From: Pycnococcus provasolii
Taxonomy: Eukaryota > Chlorophyta > Pseudoscourfieldiophyceae > Pseudoscourfieldiales > Pycnococcaceae
Length of the DNA stretch: 64,000 bases
Assembly: GCA_938743325.2 (NCBI GenBank)
Contig: OW568886.1
Location: 372,001 to 436,000 of the forward strand
Direction of reading: 5' to 3'
In this document: positions 13,496-55,576 of the stretch, piece after piece
Layout of the letters: each line of letters opens with the position of its first letter
Position numbering within the stretch: position 1 is the stretch's first letter
Notes under the pieces: model-generated
Seen by the model: the letters and a program-made list of their open reading frames with translations, nothing else
Database searches by the model: none
What the model was told of the DNA's origin: nothing
Translations under genes and position numbers: made by a program

Positions 13496-13525
<30 letters not shown>
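13496..13525. repeat. AT dinucleotide microsatellite abutting a start codon
   Basis: About fourteen AT units run directly into the ATG of the next gene. Length is likely polymorphic and would alter the 5' leader only. Confidence 0.9.
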
Positions 13526-13529
<4 letters not shown>

Positions 13530-16500
13530 TTCGTCGCGCGACGACCTCAGGCACGTCGGTGCGCTACTAGAGCACGGCGAACAACAACACACCATCACCC
13601 GCTCGCCGTCGACGTTGAAGAGAACGTGGAAAAAACAAGCCAAAATGGTCGCCGCGGCAACCATGGCGGTCGCGCCGGAGAACCCAGAACACTCGTACAA
13701 CCTCGCGGAGATGTTCGAAAAAACCGTGCTCTCGCACGTCGTCGACCACAGCGCGGAAAAGTGGAGGGCGCCGCCGCCGTCGCAGCTGCGCGTCAAGGCG
13801 GAAAGCAAGCAGTTTCGGGCGGCGCCGTACTCCGGATGGGGAGTGTCCTTGGACAAGGCGTCGGCGGAGATGTACGAAAGTCAACAGGCTGAGCTAAGAG
13901 GGGGACACACGAGCGCGCTCACGGAAGACTGGCAGAAAGTCAGCTGGGAAAACGCATACAAGAGAAAAATGCAGCTCGCGAAGCACGGCGCACACCACCT
14001 CCACGGCACAGCGCATGTTACGCCGCACCACATCGCGAGGAGCAAGAGCGCTAGGCGGCCAAACTTAAGCATCGATGTCACGCTCGAAGGCTCGGCATCC
14101 ACGGGAAACCTTCCCACACCAGGGACGTCGTGGACGGCGCCACCGCGGCCGATGACACCTGGCGCCTACACCCCTGGAAGCTCGACGCGGGCGTCACACA
14201 AAGACAGAATCGTCAGCGCACGTGTCGGGCTCACCAAGAACCTGCAAACGAAAACCGCCGAGGAGATGCGAAGACGCGGGGAGGAAATGAGAATGGCGGA
14301 GAAGCGTGCAGCAGAGCGGCGCATCGGACAAAGGCAGGCGTCGTTCGAGTACCAAAATACGCCATCCAGTGCAGCTCCGACGGCGCACGTCACTCCGGCA
14401 GGTGGCGGAGGGGGAGCTGGCGCCCGAACGCAGGACGACGACGTCGCGCTCGGCGCCGAGGTTGCAGACGAGTGGCTCGGGCTCGTCGCCAAGCTGAGGT
14501 ATCGTGGAAACTCGGACGAAAGGCTGAACCGAAGCGTGAAGATGCTCCAGCCGAACGCGCTGCGTCTGAGCGGGGCGACAGGAGACGACGCCATGAGCCT
14601 GTACCGCACGCTGTACGTCCACTCCGTGGGATTCCAGGATCGTGTGACGGAGCTCATCAGCCGGCTCACGAGGAGAAGGGAGGCGAGTGGTGAGCCCGGC
14701 GAGAAATTTCGCAACGAAATGCTCACCGCGGCATTCGTCTTCTACTCGGAACTTTGGCAGTCTGCGCTGGGAAGCCGCTTCCCCGCCTACATGCGCGCGC
14801 TGCACAAGATGACCGAGAACGACGAGCAGGACAGTTTGCTCCACCGCAACTGGGAGGTGCTTTCGGAGGACCTGAAAAAGGCCCAGAAGGAGCGTGAAGA
14901 GTTCAAAGAACGCACAGAGCTATTGGAGGTTGAGGTTGCGGAATTGCACGAACGAGTGGAAGTCGCACAGAAGCTTCGCCGCGAGGCAGCTGACGCGTCG
15001 ATGCACGCCACAAATGCCCAGAACAAGGCGATCGCCGAGCGTAGCGACGCGCTCGCTCTCGTCGCCACTGCGGAACGAGTGCGTGACGATGCGACCCAAA
15101 GGGCAGAGCATGCGGAGGCTGAGGCGACACGAGCGAAGGCGGAATGTGCGGAGGCACTGGTTATCCGCGATCGCGCGGTCGGTGAGTTGGATTCCGCGAA
15201 GGCTGCCACTGCCGAAACCAAGGTGCAGCGTGACGAGCAAAATGAGCGTGCAAAGAAGGCTGAGGCGGAACGCGACGATCTCGATTTAGCAAAAAGCGAG
15301 CTGCAGGACAAGCACGAAAAACTTGAGTTGCAGTTTGCGGAGATGAAGCGTAGCTTGGTGCTGGCAAATTCCACATCCATGCGCCTGCGTCAGCACATTG
15401 AACAGATTGAGGCGAAGAATCACAATGCTGTCATCTACGAGCTGCAAGGGACCATCACGAAGCTTCAGTACAAAATTGACCAGATGGAACGACACCACGA
15501 GCAAGAGCTGGCGGCGGCGCATCGTGGAGACCAGCAAGATGCGTTTACAAGAGGGCAGGAGGCTGGACGAGCCAGCCTCCGCAAGGAGACGGAGCAGGAG
15601 ATTGAGCGCATCCGCAAGGAATGTGCGGATGAAGTGGATCTGCACAAGCGCACGTTGAACGCGCAGAAGTCAAAGTTTGACGACGCTGTTGCGGAGGCTG
15701 TTGAGGCTGCAACCGGAGATATGCCCGCGGCACCGCCACCACCTAGTGAGACGCAACTTGAGCTTGCGCGCGTCCGCGCGCTGCACGAGGATAGTGTGGA
15801 CAATACGAAGAAGTACATAATAGACCTCGAGAAGCAAGTGGAAAAACTCGATGCTTGGGGCAAGGAGTGCCTGGTTCAGAAGACGAGAGCCATGAATGAC
15901 AAGGAGGCTTCCTTGGCGGCACAGGACCGGCTACGAGTGAAGCTGTCCAACATGATGCAGTCGAAAATGATTGTGATGGACGCAGCGCAACGAGAGATCC
16001 ATACCGCGATGCAGAAGCTTAAGGAGGTTCATGGTAAGGTTGACTCTTTCCTCGAGAAGGCGGACGGAGCATTCGACGCATGGCAGCACTCGGTGGGACG
16101 CGAGGTTGAAAGATGGGGTACTTCCATCGACGAATTCAAGCTGCTAGTCGATCAGCTCGCTCAGTTTGCCATCAACGCCATTTCCGGATCACGAGGCATG
16201 TCAGAGACGAGTGAACAGGGAATGCTGCGTGAGCTGAATGAATGCCATCGAAAGATCAAGCAGCTGCTTAATGTTGTTGAAGTTGCAAAAGAACGTGAGG
16301 CGGAGCTTGCGAACCAGAAAATGCAAGCAGTCAAGGAGGCGACGGCGGCGCAGCGTGCACTGCATGATATAACGCAGGAATTAGAACGCATCCAAGCTGA
16401 AACAAATGAAGCTAAGGCGCTTCAAAGAAAAAGCCAGGACGCGCTTGAAGCGAAGCTCGCTGAAGAGGCAAAGTTGACTGAGTTTAATGCACGTCATGCA

Positions 16501-18363
16501 AGTCGTGCACCTACATCAACTCCGATTGCACAGTCGGAATCAATGATCGCGCAGCCCGCCGCTGCGCCGGCTCCCACTCCTGTGGTGCCGGAAGTTGTCG
16601 CTGACGTGGTACCGCAGGCTGCCGCTGCGCCGGCTCCCACTCCTGTGATGCCGGAAGTTGCCGCTGACGTGGTACCGCAGGCTGCCGCTACTCCGGCTCC
16701 CACTCCTGCGGTACCGCAGGCTGCTGCTGCTGCTGCTCCGGCACCCACTCCTGTGGTGCTGGAAGTTGCTGCTGCGCCGGCACCCACTCCTGTGCTGCTG
16801 GAAGTTGCTGCTGCGCCGGCTCCCACTCCTGTGGTGCCGCAGGCTGTCGCCGCACCGGCACCCACTCCTGTGATGCCGGAAGTTGTTGCTGACGTGGTAC
16901 CGCAGGCTGTCGCCGCACCGGCTCCCACTCCTGTGGTGCCGGAAGTTGTTGCTGACGTCGTACCGCAGGCTGCCGCTGCACCGGCACCCACTCCGGTGGT
17001 GCTGGAAGTTACCGCTGACGTCGTACCGCAGGCTGCCGCTGCGCCGGCACCCACTCCTGCGGTGCCGCAGGCTGCCGCCGCACCGCCACCTTCTACTGCA
17101 GTGCCGCAGGCTGCCGCTGCGCCGGCACCCACTCCTGTGGTGCCGGAAGTTGCTGCCGCCGCACCCCCACCTTCTACTGCAGTGCCCCAGGCTGCCGCTG
17201 CGCCGGCACCCACTCCTGTGGTGCCGGAAGTTGCTGCCGCCGCACCGCCACCCACTCCTGCGGTACCGCAGGCTGCCGCTGCGCCGCCACCCACTCCTGT
17301 GGTGCCGGAAGTTGCTGCTGCACCACCACCACCTCTTGTCGAGGCCCAGGCTGCTTCCGCGCCACCACCCACTCCTGCTGTGCCCCAGGCTGCCGCCGCA
17401 CCCCCACCTTCTACTGCTGTGCCCCAGGCTGCCGCTGCGCCGGCACCCACTCCTGTGGTGCCGCAGACTGCCGCCGCATCGCCACCCCCTCCTGTTGAGG
17501 CACAGGCTACCACCGCACCACCCACTCCCATTGAGGCGCAGCCCGCTGCTGCACCGGCACCCCCTCCTGTTGAGGCGCAGCCTTCTACTGGTGTGGTCCC
17601 GCAGCCCGCTGCCGCGCCTGTCCCTCATGTTGAGGCGCAGCCCACCGCCGCCCTGGCACCCGTTTCTATAGAGCTACAGTCTGCAGCTGCGCAAGTCCAC
17701 AACACTGCTATTGTGCCACCCACTACTGCTCCGCCGGCGACCGAGCCGTCTGCCGTGTCGATTGCGCAAGCGCCGTCCACGACAATCGCGCCTGCTGAGG
17801 TGGAGCCCGATGTCGCCACGCCTATCCCTCCGGCTGCTCAACCGACCGCCGAGCCGACGCCTGAGCCAACATCGGCGGATGTGCAGGCCGCTGCTCCGCC
17901 GGCGACCGAGCCGTCTGCCGTGTCGATTGCGCCTGCGCCGTCCACGACAATCGCGCCTGCTGAGATGGAGACCGATGTCGCCACGCCTATCCCTCCTGCT
18001 GCTCAACCGACCGCCGAGCCGACGCCTGAGTCGTTTTCCGTGCCATCTACACCTGCGCCGTTAGTATCTGTGGAGGAACATGGCGCCGATACGCCGCCTC
18101 CTTTAGGAGCGAATGAGAGCAGCTTGAACATTGTTGAAATTTTCTCTCCAGGAAGAGGACCGAGCGCTCATGGACACCTCGATGGCATCCGCAGTCGCCC
18201 GGGTACAAGTGAACAGTGGCGAAGATCTATTTCGACTGTGATTCAGTCACAGTCGTTCGACACACGATTAGGCAATCGCGCGCGTTCTGCTCGCGTTAGG
18301 CAAGGTCCGGCGGGCTTCAGCACGATGTCTCCCATCGAGAAAAGAAAAGCGTACGATGGTTAA
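13525..18363 (+). CDS. giant coiled-coil protein with Ala-Pro-Thr-Val repeat tract
   Basis: I do not recognise the family. The 1612-residue product has a mixed N-terminal region of about 440 residues, including a conserved-looking segment near 14680-14830 (FYSELWQSALGSRFPAYMRALHKM). A long heptad-rich coiled coil follows (about residues 445-990; many AEAER/EKLEL stretches). Then comes a roughly 370-residue repetitive tract of units like AAAPAPTPVVPEV (16555-17660), a Ser/Thr/Pro-rich zone with an internal duplication around 17720-18030, and a basic C-terminus. Another possible start is the ATG at 13645 (MVAAATMAVA). A cytoskeletal, centrosomal or flagellar role would fit but is not shown. A UGUAA lies 47 nt after the stop. 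Confidence 0.8.
16555..17660 (+). repeat. coding minisatellite for Ala-Pro-Thr-Val repeats
   Basis: In-frame repeats built on GCTGCCGCTGCGCCGGCACC plus CACTCCTGTGGTGCCG, with variants that encode EVVADVVPQ, EVAA or QAAA linkers. Copy variants recur in blocks, indicating repeated unequal exchange. The reverse strand is also open over most of it, an artefact of composition. Confidence 0.85.
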
Positions 18364-24270: not shown

Positions 24271-27200
24271 TCAGTCACCTTCGTCGACGACGTAGCGAAC
24301 AGGCGGCGGGTGGTGCGGAGGCAGCGGAGGGATGGTAGGTGGAGCAGCTGGCCGCATGGGTGGCGGCGTATCAGGTGGCGGCGTTTGCGGAGGCAGCGGA
24401 GGTCGTGGCGCATACCACACCCAATTGCGAGTCATGGAAGCCGGCAGCGTAGGCGGAGGCGGACTCCAGAACATGCGCTGTCGAGCCGTCATCGGGTGCG
24501 GGGGAGGGGGAGGGGGATTTGGCGGCGGTGGCAAGAAAGGCGCGTGAGGAGGGCGTGCCTCGTCCGTATTTCCGTAAATGCCATAAGGCGGCGGAGATGG
24601 CGGAGGTTCCGGTGGAAATGTCATCACGCTTGGAGGTGGCTCGCGCGGCTTCGCCACGTCCACGGGAAGGTCCGCGAGGAACACCTCGGGAGCGGGCGGA
24701 GGAGAAGACACAGGCGGCATGGCCCCATTCATCTGAATGCGCTTCAGAACCTTGCTCAGGCGCTTCATCTCGAGATTTGTGAAGTTGGTACCTTCCCATT
24801 TGTCGCCGCCAGTTGTACGCACGTGCTCGCGCTTCTTGTGAGATCGCTTCTTCTTCGCTTGTTTCGGTGCCGTAATTTCGTACCCCAACGAGGCAGCCAC
24901 AAGGGGCCAGCATTCTTCCGCATGATGTGCCGGTACCGACTGCCCAACGTGGTAAACATACGGCGGTGGATCGCCGATGCCACAGCCGTGGTGCAGCAGC
25001 CGTACAGCCTGTAGGAACGCGCAAGGCGGGTCCTCGAGACGGAAGTTCGCACAGCCCAGCGCCTCGAGCGCCGAATCGCCAATGAATACAAGATTCTTGT
25101 GAGAACGCTTGGTGAGCTTGTCGGGCACCGCATATCGGCGCGGCGGTGGCGGCATGGGTGGGGGTGGCTGCGAAACGGCACCACTCACGCCACCGGCGCC
25201 CATCGCCCATCCAAATACCTGTAGGAGGGATCGACCTCCGCCCGCACGGAATCGGCGCCGCGCAGAGGCAGAATCCTTGACAGAAGGTCCAAAGCGCCGC
25301 GCACTCGCATGGCGCGTTTGCTCTGCGGTGACTTTGCTGTGGGATTTGTGTGTATAAGCGACGTAGTCGTCGAGGTCCTCGTCGCCAATGAGCGAGGGGT
25401 CAACGCGTTCGCGAACGTAGGCGGAAATATTCCTCTTCGAGTCCACGCGAGATCTCAGGCGCACGTGCTCGCCGCGCGCGAGTGCCTCCGCTGCATCCGT
25501 GACGTTCCGTGTGATGCGCGTGGTGTTTTCATGATGTTGCGACTGGCGCGTGTGAACTTTTGTACGCCTCACCGAATCATCGTCGTCATGCCGCAAGCCG
25601 TGGGCACGCATGTCCTGTCGATGCTTGCTCTCGTTCTCCCAGGGCAGGTCAAGACCAGGCTTAAGCGGAGCGCGGAGCGCGTGATCTCTGGTGATCGACT
25701 CGTGCGCCTTTCGAGCGGAGGACGCGAGGACATCCTCCTCCTGATGGATGGTCAACTCCGTGCGATGGATCTCCTCAAGCTCTTCGCGAGCCTCTGTGCG
25801 CAGATCACCAACGCGCGATGCAAAGCGATCTGCCGTCTCGCCGCGGCACCAAACAATCGCCCCGCCAGACAAGCACGCAAGCAGCGGCGAAAGTGCAGGG
25901 TCGTTGACGGCGCCAGACGACGCGGCGTCGACGTCGACGACGCTGAGTGTGTCAAGCACGAGGGCGACGAAGAGGCGCATCATCGTGTCGCGTGTTCCCG
26001 CAGACAACCCCAGATCAGCCACGATGTCGAATGGCAAGCCACCCACACCGGCAGGCTTCTCGGGAACCGCGAGGGGTGCCGCCGAGCATGCCACGCTCCG
26101 GCGCATCGAGGTCGCACCTCCGATGGTGGGGCATTGAGCGCACACGTGGTACGAGGCCGCGCCTTCTATGTAGCGCAAGCTTCCCTCAAACGATTTTGCA
26201 GCCTCACTCCTCTGCGACGACACCTTTTGCCGTGCGCGTGTAGTCAGGCGCGCGAAGATGCTCGGTCGTGGTGCCTCCGGAGGCGCGGGGCAGCGTTCGT
26301 TCGCCGCCGTCGCTTGTGCAGGCGCCCTCTGCCACTCGGCGCCGGCGTTGTCGGCGAGCGGGCGGCGGAGCGCGGTGGCAGTGCCAAGGTAGAAGGCGCC
26401 GCCGAGTTCACTGTCATCCGCGCACACCACGCCTGCTCTGTGCTCGTCCATACCAAGCAGTCGCCGCCTCCCGTTGCGCTTCTTCTCCATTTCCTTTTCC
26501 TGCTTCTTGCGCTCCTTCTCCGCCTCCTTCCGCTTCTTGCGCTCCTTCTCCGCCTCTTTCTCCTCCTTTTCGCGTTTCTTCTCCTCCTTCTTCCAGTCCT
26601 CCTTCTCCTCCTTGCACCACTTTTTCTTTTTCATATCGTCGTCCTTCCAGCAAGGGGGTGGTGGCGGAGGGGGTGGTGGAGGCGGAGGTGCCGGTGGCAA
26701 CGGCGGATGCCCGAGCAATGCGTACCTGCCCGGGAAGTACTTGCGTGGCTGTGCATTCCACGACGGCGGCGGTGGCGACGGCGGGGGAACTCCGTTCATC
26801 TCCGCGCGCATAGCTTCGTCGTCGTACGCGTGACCACCACGACCTCGGCGCAGATTCGCCCAGTAGGCGTCGGGCGGCGATGGTGGCGGCGGTGGGACGA
26901 GACCAAGCATGGCATTGTAGCGCAGCCGCGCCTCCACCTTCCACGACTTGTAACGTGGGCCATGCCTCGGAGGCGGTGGCGACGGAGCGTAGTCGGCGCC
27001 ATTTCCGCGCAGATCGCCGTCTTCGCCGATGCCAAAGTACACGGGCGGGCGTGGTGGTGCCTTGAATAGTGCCTCCACTGCTGCCTTACGCGTCGCCTCC
27101 TCTTCCAACCTGGCCATTTCCTCCGCCTGCCGCGCATCGTCCTCGAGCGACGAGCACGTGCGCACACGGCTGAATGTCCAGTGTGCGCCCGCCGCGGCAC

Positions 27201-28311
27201 CGATCGCTTCGATCGTTTCGAGCGACGCGGGCATGGATGGCACGTCGTCAGCTCGGCCGAGAGCCACGTCGAGATCGTCCACGTCGGGCTCCTCCTCGCC
27301 CTCCTCCGTCGCATTCGGCACGTGCACCAGGATGTGTGGTGCGAGCGTAAGCACATCCATCGCACGCCCGAGCAAGCCCGTCGGTCTTGAGGTTGGCGTA
27401 CCGCCTTCGCTGCGCGAGTGCGCGAGGTGCTCGTCAAGCGAGCGCCGCAGCTTTTGTGCCTGCGCGGGCAGGTTGAGCCACGCGACGGCGTCGTACAGCA
27501 AGGGCGTCTGCGCCTCCGCGCGTGCTCGGGACGGCGCGAGCGGCTCGCCAAAGACGAGTCGGTTGGGAAAGCGTGACGTGGGTCCGCACGCCGCGCGCTT
27601 GATGGCTGGTGGTGCCGGTGGCGCGGGTGGTGCGTACACGCCGTACACGACCGACGAGTTTCTGGCCGCGAAGGCTGCGAGCGTGGTTGTGTTTCTCCTC
27701 TCCGGCGTTTCTGCGCCGTGTGCGACCCACAGTCCCGCCTCGTGCTTGTCGACGGCATTCCCAAGCGGACAACCAGCCTGCACGAGTTCGAGGACGCTGA
27801 ACCTTCCTCCCTGCTGGCTCGCGATGCGCTGGTTTGCTAGAGCGCCGGCGAGTCGAGCAGCCACGGCACGCGCGGCTGGGCACCACGGATGTGTGGCGTG
27901 GGCCTCGTTGTCGTCATCCGAGTCTTCCCTTTCGTATCGCTCGCAGAGAGCGCTGTGCTTGCGGCTGTGAGGAGGCACTTCCCTTGCGAGGTGCGTGCGA
28001 ACTTCGTGGAGTCTCTGCGTGACTGTGATTGTCGTCGTCGTTTTCCTCTTCCACTTTTGCGGGTAGAGGAGTGGCGGTGGCGTCGGCGGTGGCGAGCGGG
28101 GCAGGAGAAGTCTCCAGTCACCCGACTCAGAGCTTTCAGGCCGAGGCTTTTCTTCTGAAGAGGTGGATGTGGCCTCCCCAAAAGAGCATGACAAGAGCAA
28201 GAGCAAGATCAGTAACTTAAGGCAAACCTGCTCTGAAGAAAGCTTGTCACGAGGGAGACATTGCCATGAATGTGACGGAGCCAGAGAGAAAGCGCGATGG
28301 CCGGCCATCAT
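24271..28311 (-). CDS. large secreted proline-rich (wall-type) protein
   Basis: About 1346 residues from the ATG at 28311. An N-terminal hydrophobic stretch VCLKLLILLLLLSCSFGEATS looks like a signal peptide, though it sits about 30 residues in. The body mixes charged helical parts with many PPPPP and SPPPP blocks, as in the protein at 4257: linkers such as YKSWKVEARLRYNAMLGLV and DDEAMRAEMNGV precede the blocks. A Lys/Glu-only helix of about 90 residues lies near 26460-26640. Near the C-end a non-repetitive part (FIGDSALEALGCANFRLEDPPCAFLQAVRLLHHGCGIGDP) resembles the start of a GDSL/SGNH or PC-esterase-type domain (GDS motif), which I only suggest. Proline hydroxylation and glycosylation are expected from the sequence type. 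Function unknown. Confidence 0.75.
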   Translation of the reverse strand: MMAGHRAFSLAPSHSWQCLPRDKLSSEQVCLKLLILLLLLSCSFGEATSTSSEEKPRPESSESGDWRLLLPRSPPPTPPPLLYPQKWKRKTTTTITVTQRLHEVRTHLAREVPPHSRKHSALCERYEREDSDDDNEAHATHPWCPAARAVAARLAGALANQRIASQQGGRFSVLELVQAGCPLGNAVDKHEAGLWVAHGAETPERRNTTTLAAFAARNSSVVYGVYAPPAPPAPPAIKRAACGPTSRFPNRLVFGEPLAPSRARAEAQTPLLYDAVAWLNLPAQAQKLRRSLDEHLAHSRSEGGTPTSRPTGLLGRAMDVLTLAPHILVHVPNATEEGEEEPDVDDLDVALGRADDVPSMPASLETIEAIGAAAGAHWTFSRVRTCSSLEDDARQAEEMARLEEEATRKAAVEALFKAPPRPPVYFGIGEDGDLRGNGADYAPSPPPPRHGPRYKSWKVEARLRYNAMLGLVPPPPPSPPDAYWANLRRGRGGHAYDDEAMRAEMNGVPPPSPPPPSWNAQPRKYFPGRYALLGHPPLPPAPPPPPPPPPPPPCWKDDDMKKKKWCKEEKEDWKKEEKKREKEEKEAEKERKKRKEAEKERKKQEKEMEKKRNGRRRLLGMDEHRAGVVCADDSELGGAFYLGTATALRRPLADNAGAEWQRAPAQATAANERCPAPPEAPRPSIFARLTTRARQKVSSQRSEAAKSFEGSLRYIEGAASYHVCAQCPTIGGATSMRRSVACSAAPLAVPEKPAGVGGLPFDIVADLGLSAGTRDTMMRLFVALVLDTLSVVDVDAASSGAVNDPALSPLLACLSGGAIVWCRGETADRFASRVGDLRTEAREELEEIHRTELTIHQEEDVLASSARKAHESITRDHALRAPLKPGLDLPWENESKHRQDMRAHGLRHDDDDSVRRTKVHTRQSQHHENTTRITRNVTDAAEALARGEHVRLRSRVDSKRNISAYVRERVDPSLIGDEDLDDYVAYTHKSHSKVTAEQTRHASARRFGPSVKDSASARRRFRAGGGRSLLQVFGWAMGAGGVSGAVSQPPPPMPPPPRRYAVPDKLTKRSHKNLVFIGDSALEALGCANFRLEDPPCAFLQAVRLLHHGCGIGDPPPYVYHVGQSVPAHHAEECWPLVAASLGYEITAPKQAKKKRSHKKREHVRTTGGDKWEGTNFTNLEMKRLSKVLKRIQMNGAMPPVSSPPPAPEVFLADLPVDVAKPREPPPSVMTFPPEPPPSPPPYGIYGNTDEARPPHAPFLPPPPNPPPPPPHPMTARQRMFWSPPPPTLPASMTRNWVWYAPRPPLPPQTPPPDTPPPMRPAAPPTIPPLPPHHPPPVRYVVDEGD

Positions 28312-28470
28312 CGCGCCAAATAAAAGAGGGATGGGCCGATTGGATTTTTGGATGCATTCGTTGATGAAACGAAAGTTCAAGGTTCTGCGGCCTCGATCGG
28401 GAACCACTTCATTTGCGGCCCAAACAGCATTCGGATCATCATTCGGAAATCAAAAAAATGAACCAAACGA

Positions 28471-51562: not shown

Positions 51563-52190
51563 ATGTACGGGTGGATACACAGCTGCACGGAAGACCTCGT
51601 CATCAAGCAGTTTGGCGCCAAGTCGTGGCTGCTGATTCTCGACGATGCAGGGTATGGCGAGGTGGGACTCGGCGGATGGTACAACGAAACGTACTACGAC
51701 GACAAGGTGATCTACAACCTGGTTGCGGCAGCCTCGCGCGTGCTCATGCTGGATGCGAACACCGTCCTAGACGCGTTCGGTGCGCACTTCGTCGAGTTCG
51801 CCGTGAAGGCTGGCTACGACCGCTTCATGCGATGCCTCGGATCCACCTTTGAAGATTTTGTCAAAGGTCTCGATCGTATGCATCGCCATCTCCAGATCAA
51901 TCTACCGGAGATTGTGCCGCCTGCGTTCTGGACGCATCGGTGTTTGACAGAGCCTGGTGTGCTCTACCTGCACTACTCCAGCACGCGCGAAGGTTTGTGG
52001 CCTATGGTTCCAAGTCTCTGCAAAGAGGTGGCGCGACGCTACTATGCATTCGAGCTGGATGTGCAGATTGAAAAGCCAGCACGCGTCGACAAGCGAGGTT
52101 CACATACTACCGTTTTCCGTCTTACCGTCGTGGGTGGCGAGGCGGCGGGAAACTTTCTCTCCGAGTCGGATTATCGTGCAAAGATGGGCG

Positions 52191-52221
<31 letters not shown>

Positions 52222-53241
52222 CAACAGAACTACGGCAGCAACTACTACTGCTACGGCGCCATCATCATCGACGACTAGTACCATACGCTGCCCCTTCTCT
52301 GGTATGAAAGTCGATTTCCCTACAACTTCTTCTTCACCACCACCAACAACAACGTCAGAAGATGCTGTGATTCGTCGAAGGACCCCATCGTCGACGAAGA
52401 ACAACAAGTCTGTGCCATTGCGCGGTATACCTCACAACAGACCACCATCATCCTCATCATCGAGAATGGATTATCAAAGCCACGCCACTGCTGTAGAAGA
52501 CGCCGCACGTTCGTTCGGGGAAGTTTCGATGGCATCTCGATATGCACACAAGGAAAGGAAAGGAGACTACCTTGACGCAGCGGCAGCACTGCCAGCAGCT
52601 GCACCGATAGAGACAACAACAAGTCCTCGTCAATCCTTTACAACAATTGACGGTTCCGAGCCGCCGCGACACATTGCAACTTTGTGCGAGGAAGCATTGC
52701 TTGACGAGGATGAGGACAATACAGACAGATCCGAAGGAATGTCATCATCAGTGTCGTCAAGTCGCAAAGATAGCAGAGGCAGCAACGCCAGCAGCGACGA
52801 GTCTCTACGAAGGAAGGATTCTCCTCTAATTCACAACGCATGCATGCACGCAACCGTGGAAGGCATAGATCTGCAGCACTTACGTACCTCGCTCGAAGGT
52901 GAGCGAGGTACGATGCAGCATCTCAGTCCCATTCACTCCGGCCGGGACGATGACAACTACTACTCGGCGTCGTCGTCAAGTCGTAGCACATGGGCTTCGT
53001 CGAGTCTATTTTCTCACAGCACCGACAGTACTCCCAGAGACCTTGGTGGTGGTGGTGGTGGTGGTACAACACTGCGCGTCGTAGAAGAGGAATTAGGAGG
53101 AGGAGGAGATGTTTCCACCACTCCTCGAGACATGTCAGCCTCACGACATCGTCACACTTCTGCCGGAAACCTGATAACGCGTGATGAAGGAGGACAACAG
53201 CTGGTGGAGGAGCAAGGAGGAGGACGAGCAGCTCGCGCAGA

Positions 53242-53298
<57 letters not shown>

Positions 53299-55576
53299 CG
53301 ATCCAAGGAAGGTTTTCGAACGATCGATTTCAGAACCCCTCTCCTCGCCGAGGCTTCCACACTTACAGAATCAGCTTCACCACCTGCTGAGCGCATACGA
53401 CGTGCTCGAAACGCTGCCGTATCACATCGTGTTCCGTTACGACCTCCGCGTCATCTCGGTGGGGAAACTTCTTTCGCGTATCATGCCACAGCTATTGGAG
53501 GAGGGAGCACTCGTCAGCGAGTCCTTCAATATCGGAGCAATTGGGCACATCTCACGCCCCAATGCGCCCGTGAGCACGTCTTCACTCGTCGACGCATGTG
53601 CAAGGAGCGACGACGGGACCGCCTCCCTGGAGCTTGTCGCTCAGCATTGTCTACCTAACGCAAAGCATCGCATCACGATGCTGGGCGTGGTGAAGTTCAA
53701 GAAGTCCAAGGATCGCGATCCCGTGTTTCTCTTCCACGGCTGTCCGAATGCTCTGACGCTGGCCGAGATCACCGAGCAGGGTTTGTACCTCGACGACTGC
53801 CCACTCTACGCGAGCAACATCGACCTCCTCATGGAGGGTGAACGGTTGCTTCGACAGAACAACGAGGCGAGCGCGATGCAGCTGCGGCGAGATGCCGAAA
53901 CGTCGCGGCGCCTGAACGTTCGTCTTGCGGCTGCGCTGCAATTTGTCTCCCACGAGGTTCGCAACCAACTAGCTCCTGTCCATGCAATCGTTCGCGACGG
54001 TGGCGTGCCGAAGAAGAAGAGGTCGTACCGCAAGAGCAAATTTGCCAGTGCGGTATCGTCACCACCACCGTCGTCGGCAGTTCCAGCAGAGGCTGCCGCA
54101 GCGGGCGTGGATGATGAACAAGCCGTGTTATCGGCGCCGACAGTAGGTGCACCAGGCGTCTTTACCTATAATACTTCGCAGTCAGAAGACACTCAAGACA
54201 TGTCAGACAGCTCAGACCCTGCTTCAGATGTGGACGACGAGGGTGGAGATCGCGGCACCGTTCTCACCGCACTGTCAACCACGTCGGAGATCCTCAACAA
54301 CGTGCTTACGATTGCACGGCTGAAAAGTGGAAAGGCTGATGTGCCCACAGGCGTGTTTAAGCTTGGCTCGTGGATTGATGTCGTGGATCAGTATGGTCAG
54401 AAACTCGTGAAGCGGAGGAAAGACAAAAAGCATGACGTGAGATTCAAGGAGATGGTTTTGGACAAGCGCCTCAGCAAACAAGAACGTCAAGAAAAACCTC
54501 AGGATGATGGAGCCGAGTCTTCAAAAGTCTTTCAACATGAAAAGTCTTTCGACAGGCTACGCGACATCTCGGTAGAAGGTTCACGAACGTGGCTTATCCA
54601 GGTGGTGACGAATCTTCTCTCGAATGCGTACAAGTTCACCGAGCGAGGTACCATCTGCGTGACTTGGACAATCAGCGATCCTCCGATTGCAGCGGCGGCT
54701 GAGGAGGAGGAGGAGGAGGAGGAGGGGGCAAGAAAGGAGAAGGATGATGATCATGGGCAGAAGAGCAGCGCACGATCCACAGCGTCGTCGTCGTCATTAT
54801 TGTCCAAAGATCCCGCAAACCTTATTCATGTCAAGGTGCAGGTGTCTGACACAGGAACGGGTATCGCCAAGGAACAAATTCCAAGTGTTCTCGAAGAATT
54901 TGGACAAATTCGCACCGGGAACGATACGAATTCAGGCACCGGACTAGGCTTACCTCTATCCAAGCGCATGACAGAGGCAATGGGAGGGACGTTCGTGTTC
55001 GAGAGCGAGCTTGGCGTGGGAACTACTGTGACGGTGGAGCTGAACATGAAGATGAGCGATGCGCCGATGATGGGCACGATCGCCGAACGCACCGAAAATC
55101 CCTTCGCAAAGCTGCCCTTGCCGCTTCCGCACGAGGTGTCGTCGATGCGACCAGGTCTGGACCTCTACTGCGATGTGCTTGCAGTGGAGGACAACGCACT
55201 TCTGTCCAAAATGTACCGCCGAAAGTGCGAACGCATCGGCCTGAGCGTCAAATGCGTGGAGGATGGAGCAGATGCGGTGGAGCTGATCGAATCTGGATGG
55301 AAATTTGGCGTCATTCTCATGGACATGACGATGCCCGTGATGAACGGCGATGTGGCGTGCCAGCTCATCCGAAAGCCGGCGCACCTGCAAGGCCCCGATT
55401 ACAAGGGCTGCATCTGTCTTGTCACGGGAAATGCTTACAGCAAGAAGCAGCTCGACGAGCTGCAGACGAATGTGGGATTCGACCACGTCTTCCAGAAGGG
55501 CGAGACGCCGAGCTGGATGGATCTGATTGAATATCTCGTGGAACACATCTCCGGAAAGAATAAGGGGAAAGCGTAA
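51563..55576 (+). CDS. H-NOX/HNOBA hybrid histidine kinase with receiver domain
   Basis: Predicted gas-sensing (NO or O2) two-component sensor of 1337 residues. Residues 1-190 are a heme H-NOX domain: it begins MYGWIHSCTEDLVIKQFG, the proximal His is H107 in LDRMHRHL, and the YxSxR heme-propionate motif is Y138-S140-R142. About 400 residues of Ser/Thr/Asn/His-rich linker follow, including a poly-Asn run. Residues about 602-770 match the HNOBA domain of soluble guanylate cyclase (ETLPYHIVFRYDLRVISVGKLLSRIMPQL, and a conserved LFHGCPNALTLAEITEQGLYLDDCP). A histidine kinase then has H797 in VSHEVRNQL, the N-box LLSNAYKFTERG near 1020, and G-boxes SDTGTGI and SGTGLGLPLSKRM. The receiver (about 1200-1327) has D1254 in ILMDMTMPVMNG. 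The ATG at 51563 is set by the conserved MYG start. Confidence 0.92.
53244..53300 (+). repeat. in-frame AAC run encoding poly-Asn
   Basis: About nineteen AAC codons in the linker between H-NOX and HNOBA. A shorter AAC run is near 52203-52227. Both fall in unstructured linker, so length changes are probably tolerated. Confidence 0.95.

Follow-up and report, generated by a model that had tools for sequence, protein, structure and literature searches.

Soluble guanylate cyclase (sGC) beta-1 of animals and the Chlamydomonas protein CYG12 carry an H-NOX heme domain, an HNOBA domain and a helical connector on one chain, followed by a cyclase (PMC2576301). In cyanobacteria, H-NOX and an HNOBA-kinase are spread over two genes: the Nostoc H-NOX of known structure is encoded in a histidine kinase operon, whereas the HNOBA whose structure was solved is part of a histidine kinase of N. 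punctiforme (PMC2576301). In other bacterial pairs, of the H-NOX/kinase and H-NOX/GGDEF kinds, H-NOX controls a kinase or another enzyme (PMC8738867). Here we describe a gene of the green alga Pycnococcus provasolii whose product carries H-NOX, HNOBA, histidine kinase and receiver regions on a single chain. The protein, labelled P0001, is encoded at 51563-55576 (+) of a 64,000-nucleotide stretch (the window; positions 372001-436000 of contig OW568886.1, here C26, in the 32.3 Mb, 46-contig assembly GCA_938743325.2).

All component domains of P0001 are already known. It has the same three ingredients as the cyanobacterial H-NOX plus HNOBA kinase (Alr2278, 2p04/2p08), but places them on one chain in a eukaryote and adds a receiver and long low-complexity linkers. 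With sGC beta-1 it shares the H-NOX, HNOBA and connector on one chain, whereas its output is a histidine kinase and receiver without a cyclase and its linker is longer. Other eukaryotic hybrid kinases (ethylene, CHASE, phytochrome and others) likewise couple a kinase and receiver to HPt proteins and response regulators. A first-pass annotation, made from the letters alone, had stated that a cyclase follows the sensor pair in animals and known green algae; this is too broad as a guide to eukaryotes, since H-NOX proteins of Acanthamoeba, outside those groups, are described as not occurring with guanylyl cyclases (PMC4053784). The terms 'nitric oxide' and 'HNOB' do not occur in a review from 2019 on the kinases of archaea and eukaryotes, and no heme sensor is named in the rows consulted of its table of eukaryotic groups (PMC6944256). 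Among the papers listed in full-text literature searches, no title or abstract beginning described a eukaryotic H-NOX-HNOBA-kinase.

A single open frame encodes the sensor pair and the kinase

P0001 is a real gene of a green alga, predicted to encode a single-chain H-NOX-HNOBA hybrid kinase. Pfam called H-NOX, HNOBA, HATPase_c and receiver domains in that order in one open frame, all four above the curated cut-offs. The first-pass proposal of a sensor pair and a kinase output on one eukaryotic chain is supported; H107, H797 and D1254 lie where it had placed them, and the YxSxR motif is present. The features, in window coordinates, are:

51563..55576, + strand: P0001 gene; single open frame of 1,337 codons plus stop, no internal stop
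51566..52066, + strand: H-NOX (HNOB), residues 2-168; Pfam PF07700 (E 5.5e-33), PDB matches and alignments
52079..53374, + strand: low-complexity linker of ~430 residues, rich in Ser, Thr and Asn by composition; frame open throughout
53390..53893, + strand: HNOBA (PAS-like), residues 610-777; Pfam PF07701 (E 2.1e-8)
53810..53950, + strand: HNOBA-to-kinase connector, probably helical, residues ~750-796; first part aligned to sGC beta-1 after GLYLSD
53948..53971, + strand: H-box SHEVRNQL with the probable phospho-acceptor H797 (codon 53951-53953); motif, DHp profile 6.4 bits
53999..54232, + strand: low-complexity insert in the DHp hairpin, ~80 residues (about 813-890); alignment with 16 other kinases, composition
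54266..54340, + strand: DHp helix 2, residues ~902-926; home-made profile, 8.9 bits
54611..55048, + strand: HATPase_c, residues 1017-1162, running from the N box to where the Pfam match stops and containing a Glu-rich insert; Pfam PF02518, motifs
55175..55552, + strand: receiver, residues ~1205-1330, with E1209/D1210, D1254, T1288 and K1312; Pfam PF00072, motifs

The frame could start at TTG 51461 or ATG 51563 and ends at 55576; the ATG gives an MYG start common to three aligned H-NOX proteins. Because the other five frames hold 30-45 stops each over this stretch, and the longest stop-free run in 20 single-base shuffles of the window was 201-412 amino acids, a random origin of the frame is excluded. 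Codon use, trained on two neighbouring frames, favoured the P0001 frame in 15 of 17 overlapping segments, the remaining two (both within the low-complexity linker) favouring another frame. Long single frames are usual in this genome: a starch branching enzyme, TGT, a U32 peptidase and a DUF3050 protein each have near-complete domains in one frame, and among sister kinases one frame reaches at least 2,321 amino acids. In-frame low-complexity stretches were also seen in other proteins of the genome. A donor-motif list and inspection by eye gave no convincing splice signal for an intron in the linker or the DHp insert.

Contamination was considered and rejected because the low-complexity inserts resemble those of other assembly proteins and because the gene lies on a 616 kb contig with a plant-type starch branching enzyme and an adjacent VHL-domain gene. 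PsbO of the assembly scored best with green-lineage chains. Of 34 listed PDB sequences, 11 matched this PsbO with 318-383 bits, and none of the remaining 23 exceeded 250 bits; we take the former to be green-lineage and the latter red-lineage or cyanobacterial.

The sensor pair resembles that of sGC

The best solved-structure matches of the P0001 H-NOX were sGC beta-1 and Nostoc Alr2278, the latter 35% identical. Besides matching the HNOB profile, the domain conserves H107, P120 and Y138-S140-R142 (YxSxR, 138-142) in the alignment. The proximal His, the Pro and the YxSxR heme-propionate motif have established roles in H-NOX proteins. The distal pocket contains M148, which aligns with a Met of Nostoc, and F76. 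Of the docking residues named for sGC, Asp102 has D104 as its counterpart (PMC8196705). An AlphaFold2 model of the H-NOX made without an alignment had a mean pLDDT of 37 and was discarded.

HNOBA gave seven PDB matches up to E 10, all to sGC beta-1, sGC alpha-1 or the Nostoc HNOBA kinase 2p04/2p08, and its best alignment covers the GLYL-D-PL stretch just before the sGC helix. Both sensor domains align to sGC beta-1, in matching order, and P0001 has the sGC arrangement of H-NOX followed by HNOBA on one chain; Pfam called no Guanylate_cyc domain in P0001, the domain that would complete an sGC. The connector runs straight into the H-box. The linker contains a poly-Asn run encoded by a tandem repeat of 19 AAC codons (53243-53299). 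When the whole of P0001 was searched against its own genome, eight matches were returned: its own gene, six kinase or receiver regions, and one on contig C38 (E 5.5e-6, with stops) that was rejected as a second HNOBA, being a match to the poly-Asn run only.

It is quite possible, though no more than a tentative view, that the gene descends from an algal sGC in which a hybrid kinase took the place of the cyclase, and not from a fusion of a cyanobacterial-type H-NOX with an HNOBA kinase. HNOBA matched sGC beta-1 best (38 bits, E 1.1e-8), against 16 bits (E 0.06) for the Nostoc kinase fragment, scores that are only roughly comparable because the chains compared are of unequal length (619 and 121 residues). 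On these scores the HNOBA leans to sGC. Pulling the other way, P0001 and Nostoc have the distal Met in common, and the cyanobacterial pair contains the same set of domains.

The trees of the H-NOX and kinase parts that had been proposed were built, and neither resolves the placement of P0001. The H-NOX tree had 13 rows, of which 10 were bacterial; these came from 10 plasmid records out of 21, and the omitted 11 were of genera already represented; P0001 stood beside Manduca sGC beta-1 and near Nostoc, the three not being separated, which also speaks against reading a cyclase replacement from it. The kinase tree had 17 rows: nine kinases of the same genome, seven bacterial kinases and P0001. Its own-genome rows were drawn from 15 translated regions and not from all HATPase_c matches. 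Six of the 15 were left out, namely L050, L051, L057 and L055 because they nearly duplicate L049 or L052 (identity 92-96% over the five pairs that were aligned), L054 as gyrase B-like and L056 as mitochondrial-type kinase-like; bacterial L072, which has no annotation, was also omitted. The long branch of P0001 joined the long branch of the phytochrome kinase L044, and the P0001 kinase core is too divergent to place.

The kinase and receiver half

P0001 has the HATPase_c domain of a hybrid kinase, with an N box (1017-1025) and G boxes (1095-1101 and 1124-1130), followed by a C-terminal receiver with its Asp, Thr and Lys. The Pfam match to HATPase_c spans 1089-1162 (E 1.9e-18) and that to Response_reg 1205-1290 (E 1.7e-9). 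For the DHp region we built a profile from 13 other kinases. Helix 2 alone scored 8.9 bits against it, a score that none of 466 scored shuffles reached, and helix 1 with the H-box scored 6.4 bits, exceeded by two of 497. Low-complexity inserts also occur in sister hybrid kinases, one of which (L047) has a shorter one at the same place in the DHp hairpin.

Relay components in the genome

The genome was searched in six frames, exon by exon, and the match counts are therefore lower bounds from which intron-split genes may be missing. HNOB and HNOBA each gave one match in the assembly, both in the P0001 gene, so no competing H-NOX receptor was found. HATPase_c gave 29 matches, not all of them histidine kinases, and receivers 32. 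Four HPt matches were obtained. One is a free protein of 148 amino acids (E 1.8e-9) on contig C2, and the other three share their frames with a cyclase match. Two proteins of 542 and 535 amino acids, on contigs C26 and C3, combine a receiver with a Myb-like domain, the make-up of plant 'type-B' response regulators. With a free HPt and receiver-plus-Myb regulators, the genome carries a plant-type multistep phosphorelay. Hybrid kinases whose sensors are of the PAS, GAF or phytochrome kind occur as well. Nineteen cyclase matches were listed for the assembly, all of them outside the P0001 gene. A two-component output in place of a cyclase, as first proposed, agrees with these results. No truncated haemoglobin match was obtained, although introns could hide such a gene.

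Other two-component and neighbouring genes

Four histidine kinase-receiver-HPt-cyclase genes (L049, C41 1-9000; L050, C37 5000-14000; L057, C1 1-9000; L051, C37 424000-431000) encode proteins that are 95-96% identical. Three of the set lie within ~11 kb of the ends of C41, C37 and C1, and the fourth, shorter copy is ~40 kb from the other end of C37; they are possibly a subtelomeric family. Two further genes (L052, C42:222000-231000; L055, C10:911000-920000) encode histidine kinase-receiver-receiver-cyclase proteins of 1,270 and 1,283 amino acids that are 95% identical, with two-component and cyclase domains on one chain. L044:573-5948 encodes a phytochrome (PAS_2-GAF-PHY) with PAS, histidine kinase and two receivers, 1,792 amino acids in all. 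The PAS_9 hybrid kinase at L048:2018-5677 contains an NCRFLQG stretch, the LOV flavin-site motif, and is likely a blue-light kinase. L043 (C35:476500-486000) is an open frame of more than 2,300 amino acids in which many near-alike tandem repeats resembling PAS precede a hybrid kinase.

Within the window, the frame just upstream of P0001 (48884-50713, +) encodes a low-complexity protein that includes a VHL beta domain (E 1.8e-8); the animal VHL protein belongs to the O2 pathway. Two other frames, at 13525-18363 (+) and 24271-28407 (-), code for 1,612 and 1,378 amino acids and had no Pfam match at 0.001.

H-NOX proteins outside this genome

In bacterial plasmids, H-NOX was a standalone open reading frame of 179-198 amino acids at all 10 loci read, out of 21 records matched by tblastn. 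Its neighbours at these loci were GGDEF genes (three), ATP-binding proteins (two), other genes (two) or unannotated (three). The P0001 HNOBA had no match in the plasmids at E 0.01. Two scans of genome contigs and two of viral contigs confirmed no relative, as their 25, 72, 42 and 600 pattern matches all failed tblastn; the peptide patterns were strict, so these scans say little about absence, tblastn having found H-NOX in 21 plasmid records.

A predicted route from heme to transcription

With moderate confidence we read P0001 as a predicted cytosolic, NO (nitric oxide)-responsive hybrid kinase that feeds HPt and type-B-like regulators. NO would bind the heme held by H107, and the resulting shift at the heme site would pass through the HNOBA dimer and the connector into the DHp helices. 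Autophosphorylation of H797 would thereby be altered, and phosphate would pass to D1254 in the receiver on the same chain, from there to the free HPt on C2 and finally to the receiver-plus-Myb regulators on C26 and C3, with altered transcription as the outcome. What was observed directly is the order of the domains, the key residues and the presence in the genome of each downstream protein class. In sGC, NO binding moves the H-NOX helix bearing the proximal His, and the contacts with PAS and coiled coil are rearranged (PMC8196705). Bacterial H-NOX alters autophosphorylation of its partner kinase, and the NO-bound form inhibits it in Vibrio cholerae and Shewanella oneidensis (PMC8738867). By analogy, an sGC-like motion and a bacterial-type control of the kinase would both occur within one P0001 chain.

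Several observations weigh against this reading. The ~430-residue linker is unlike sGC beta-1, whose matches end at 168 and begin again at 207. Where sGC has Asp106, which belongs to its docking network, P0001 has R108 (PMC8196705). We infer a coiled coil in the connector, but in a simple heptad test no 28-residue register had at least seven of eight hydrophobic a/d positions. Because of the long linker, R108 and the absence of a strong coiled coil in that test, a plain copy of the sGC mechanism is disfavoured. The genome gave no match to the NO synthase family, although introns could hide a gene, so NO would come from another route or from outside. The searches found no P0001 orthologue that would show conservation. 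In the kinase half, Pfam did not call HisKA in the whole protein or in three DHp pieces at E up to 10, the one family of the proposed domain search that failed to appear. The DHp profile matched weakly, at 11.2 bits (E 0.017) for residues 741-940 and 5.9 bits (E 0.73) for the whole protein. The H-box has Gln at the usual Pro, a long insert splits the DHp, and no terminal branch in the kinase tree is longer than that of the P0001 core (4.44 changes per column).

Because the profile match is not clearly significant, the DHp was placed by motif, order and position, and H797 is the probable phospho-acceptor. The description of P0001 as a complete histidine kinase therefore held for the N and G boxes, HATPase_c and receiver, and less clearly for HisKA, where the H-box and H797 are in place. 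These same features of the DHp (no HisKA match, the weak profile, the Pro-to-Gln change, the insert and the long branch) would also fit a kinase half that is a weak enzyme, or mainly a phosphatase or relay scaffold, with NO gating the removal of phosphate and not its addition. We consider this unlikely: the N, G1 and G2 boxes are intact, as are the acidic pair, Asp, Thr and Lys of the receiver, and HATPase_c matches at E 1.9e-18.

As to the ligand, NO or CO (carbon monoxide) is likelier than O2 from the residues of the heme pocket. The alignments show no Tyr at P0001 residues 143-153, the distal-pocket stretch expected to hold the Tyr column of O2-binding H-NOX proteins, the aligned set itself containing no O2-type sequence. 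M148, equivalent to the Nostoc Met, is found there. O2 is unlikely as the ligand given this Tyr-free stretch, and O2-binding H-NOX proteins require the distal Tyr (PMC8738867). The proposed sensing of NO or O2 is narrowed in this way, NO or CO being favoured. That the P0001 heme responds to O2, CO or redox state instead of NO is decidedly improbable on this evidence, even though some H-NOX proteins sense O2 (PMC8738867) and H-NOX proteins have been proposed as redox sensors (PMC7108781).

It is very improbable that two genes, an H-NOX and an HNOBA kinase split as in cyanobacteria (PMC2576301), were read as one through an accidentally open linker: its low complexity and the two dissenting codon segments fit such a view, but ~430 linker codons are free of stops where other frames hold 30-45 over the gene, in-frame low-complexity stretches and long single frames recur in this genome, and the genomic sequence holds one open frame and not the separate H-NOX of a bacterial two-gene system.

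Significance

Canonical sGC is described as absent from higher plants; within the chlorophytes, cyclase domains are numerous in Chlamydomonas and Volvox and few or missing in others (PMC4620153). NO perception in green algae and plants is unsettled. It is possible, though less likely than not, that P0001 is a gas receptor of neither the sGC nor the bacterial two-protein form, in which NO is wired within one chain into a plant-type HPt/type-B relay, in an alga where no other H-NOX protein was found; its architecture could then stand between the cyanobacterial pairs and sGC. A protein coupling the sGC sensor to a phosphorelay would offer a specific NO receptor, open to experiment, that does not signal through cGMP, and a ready-made case for asking whether a kinase can be driven by that sensor pair. 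Its architecture suggests that this alga may read NO through a phosphate relay.

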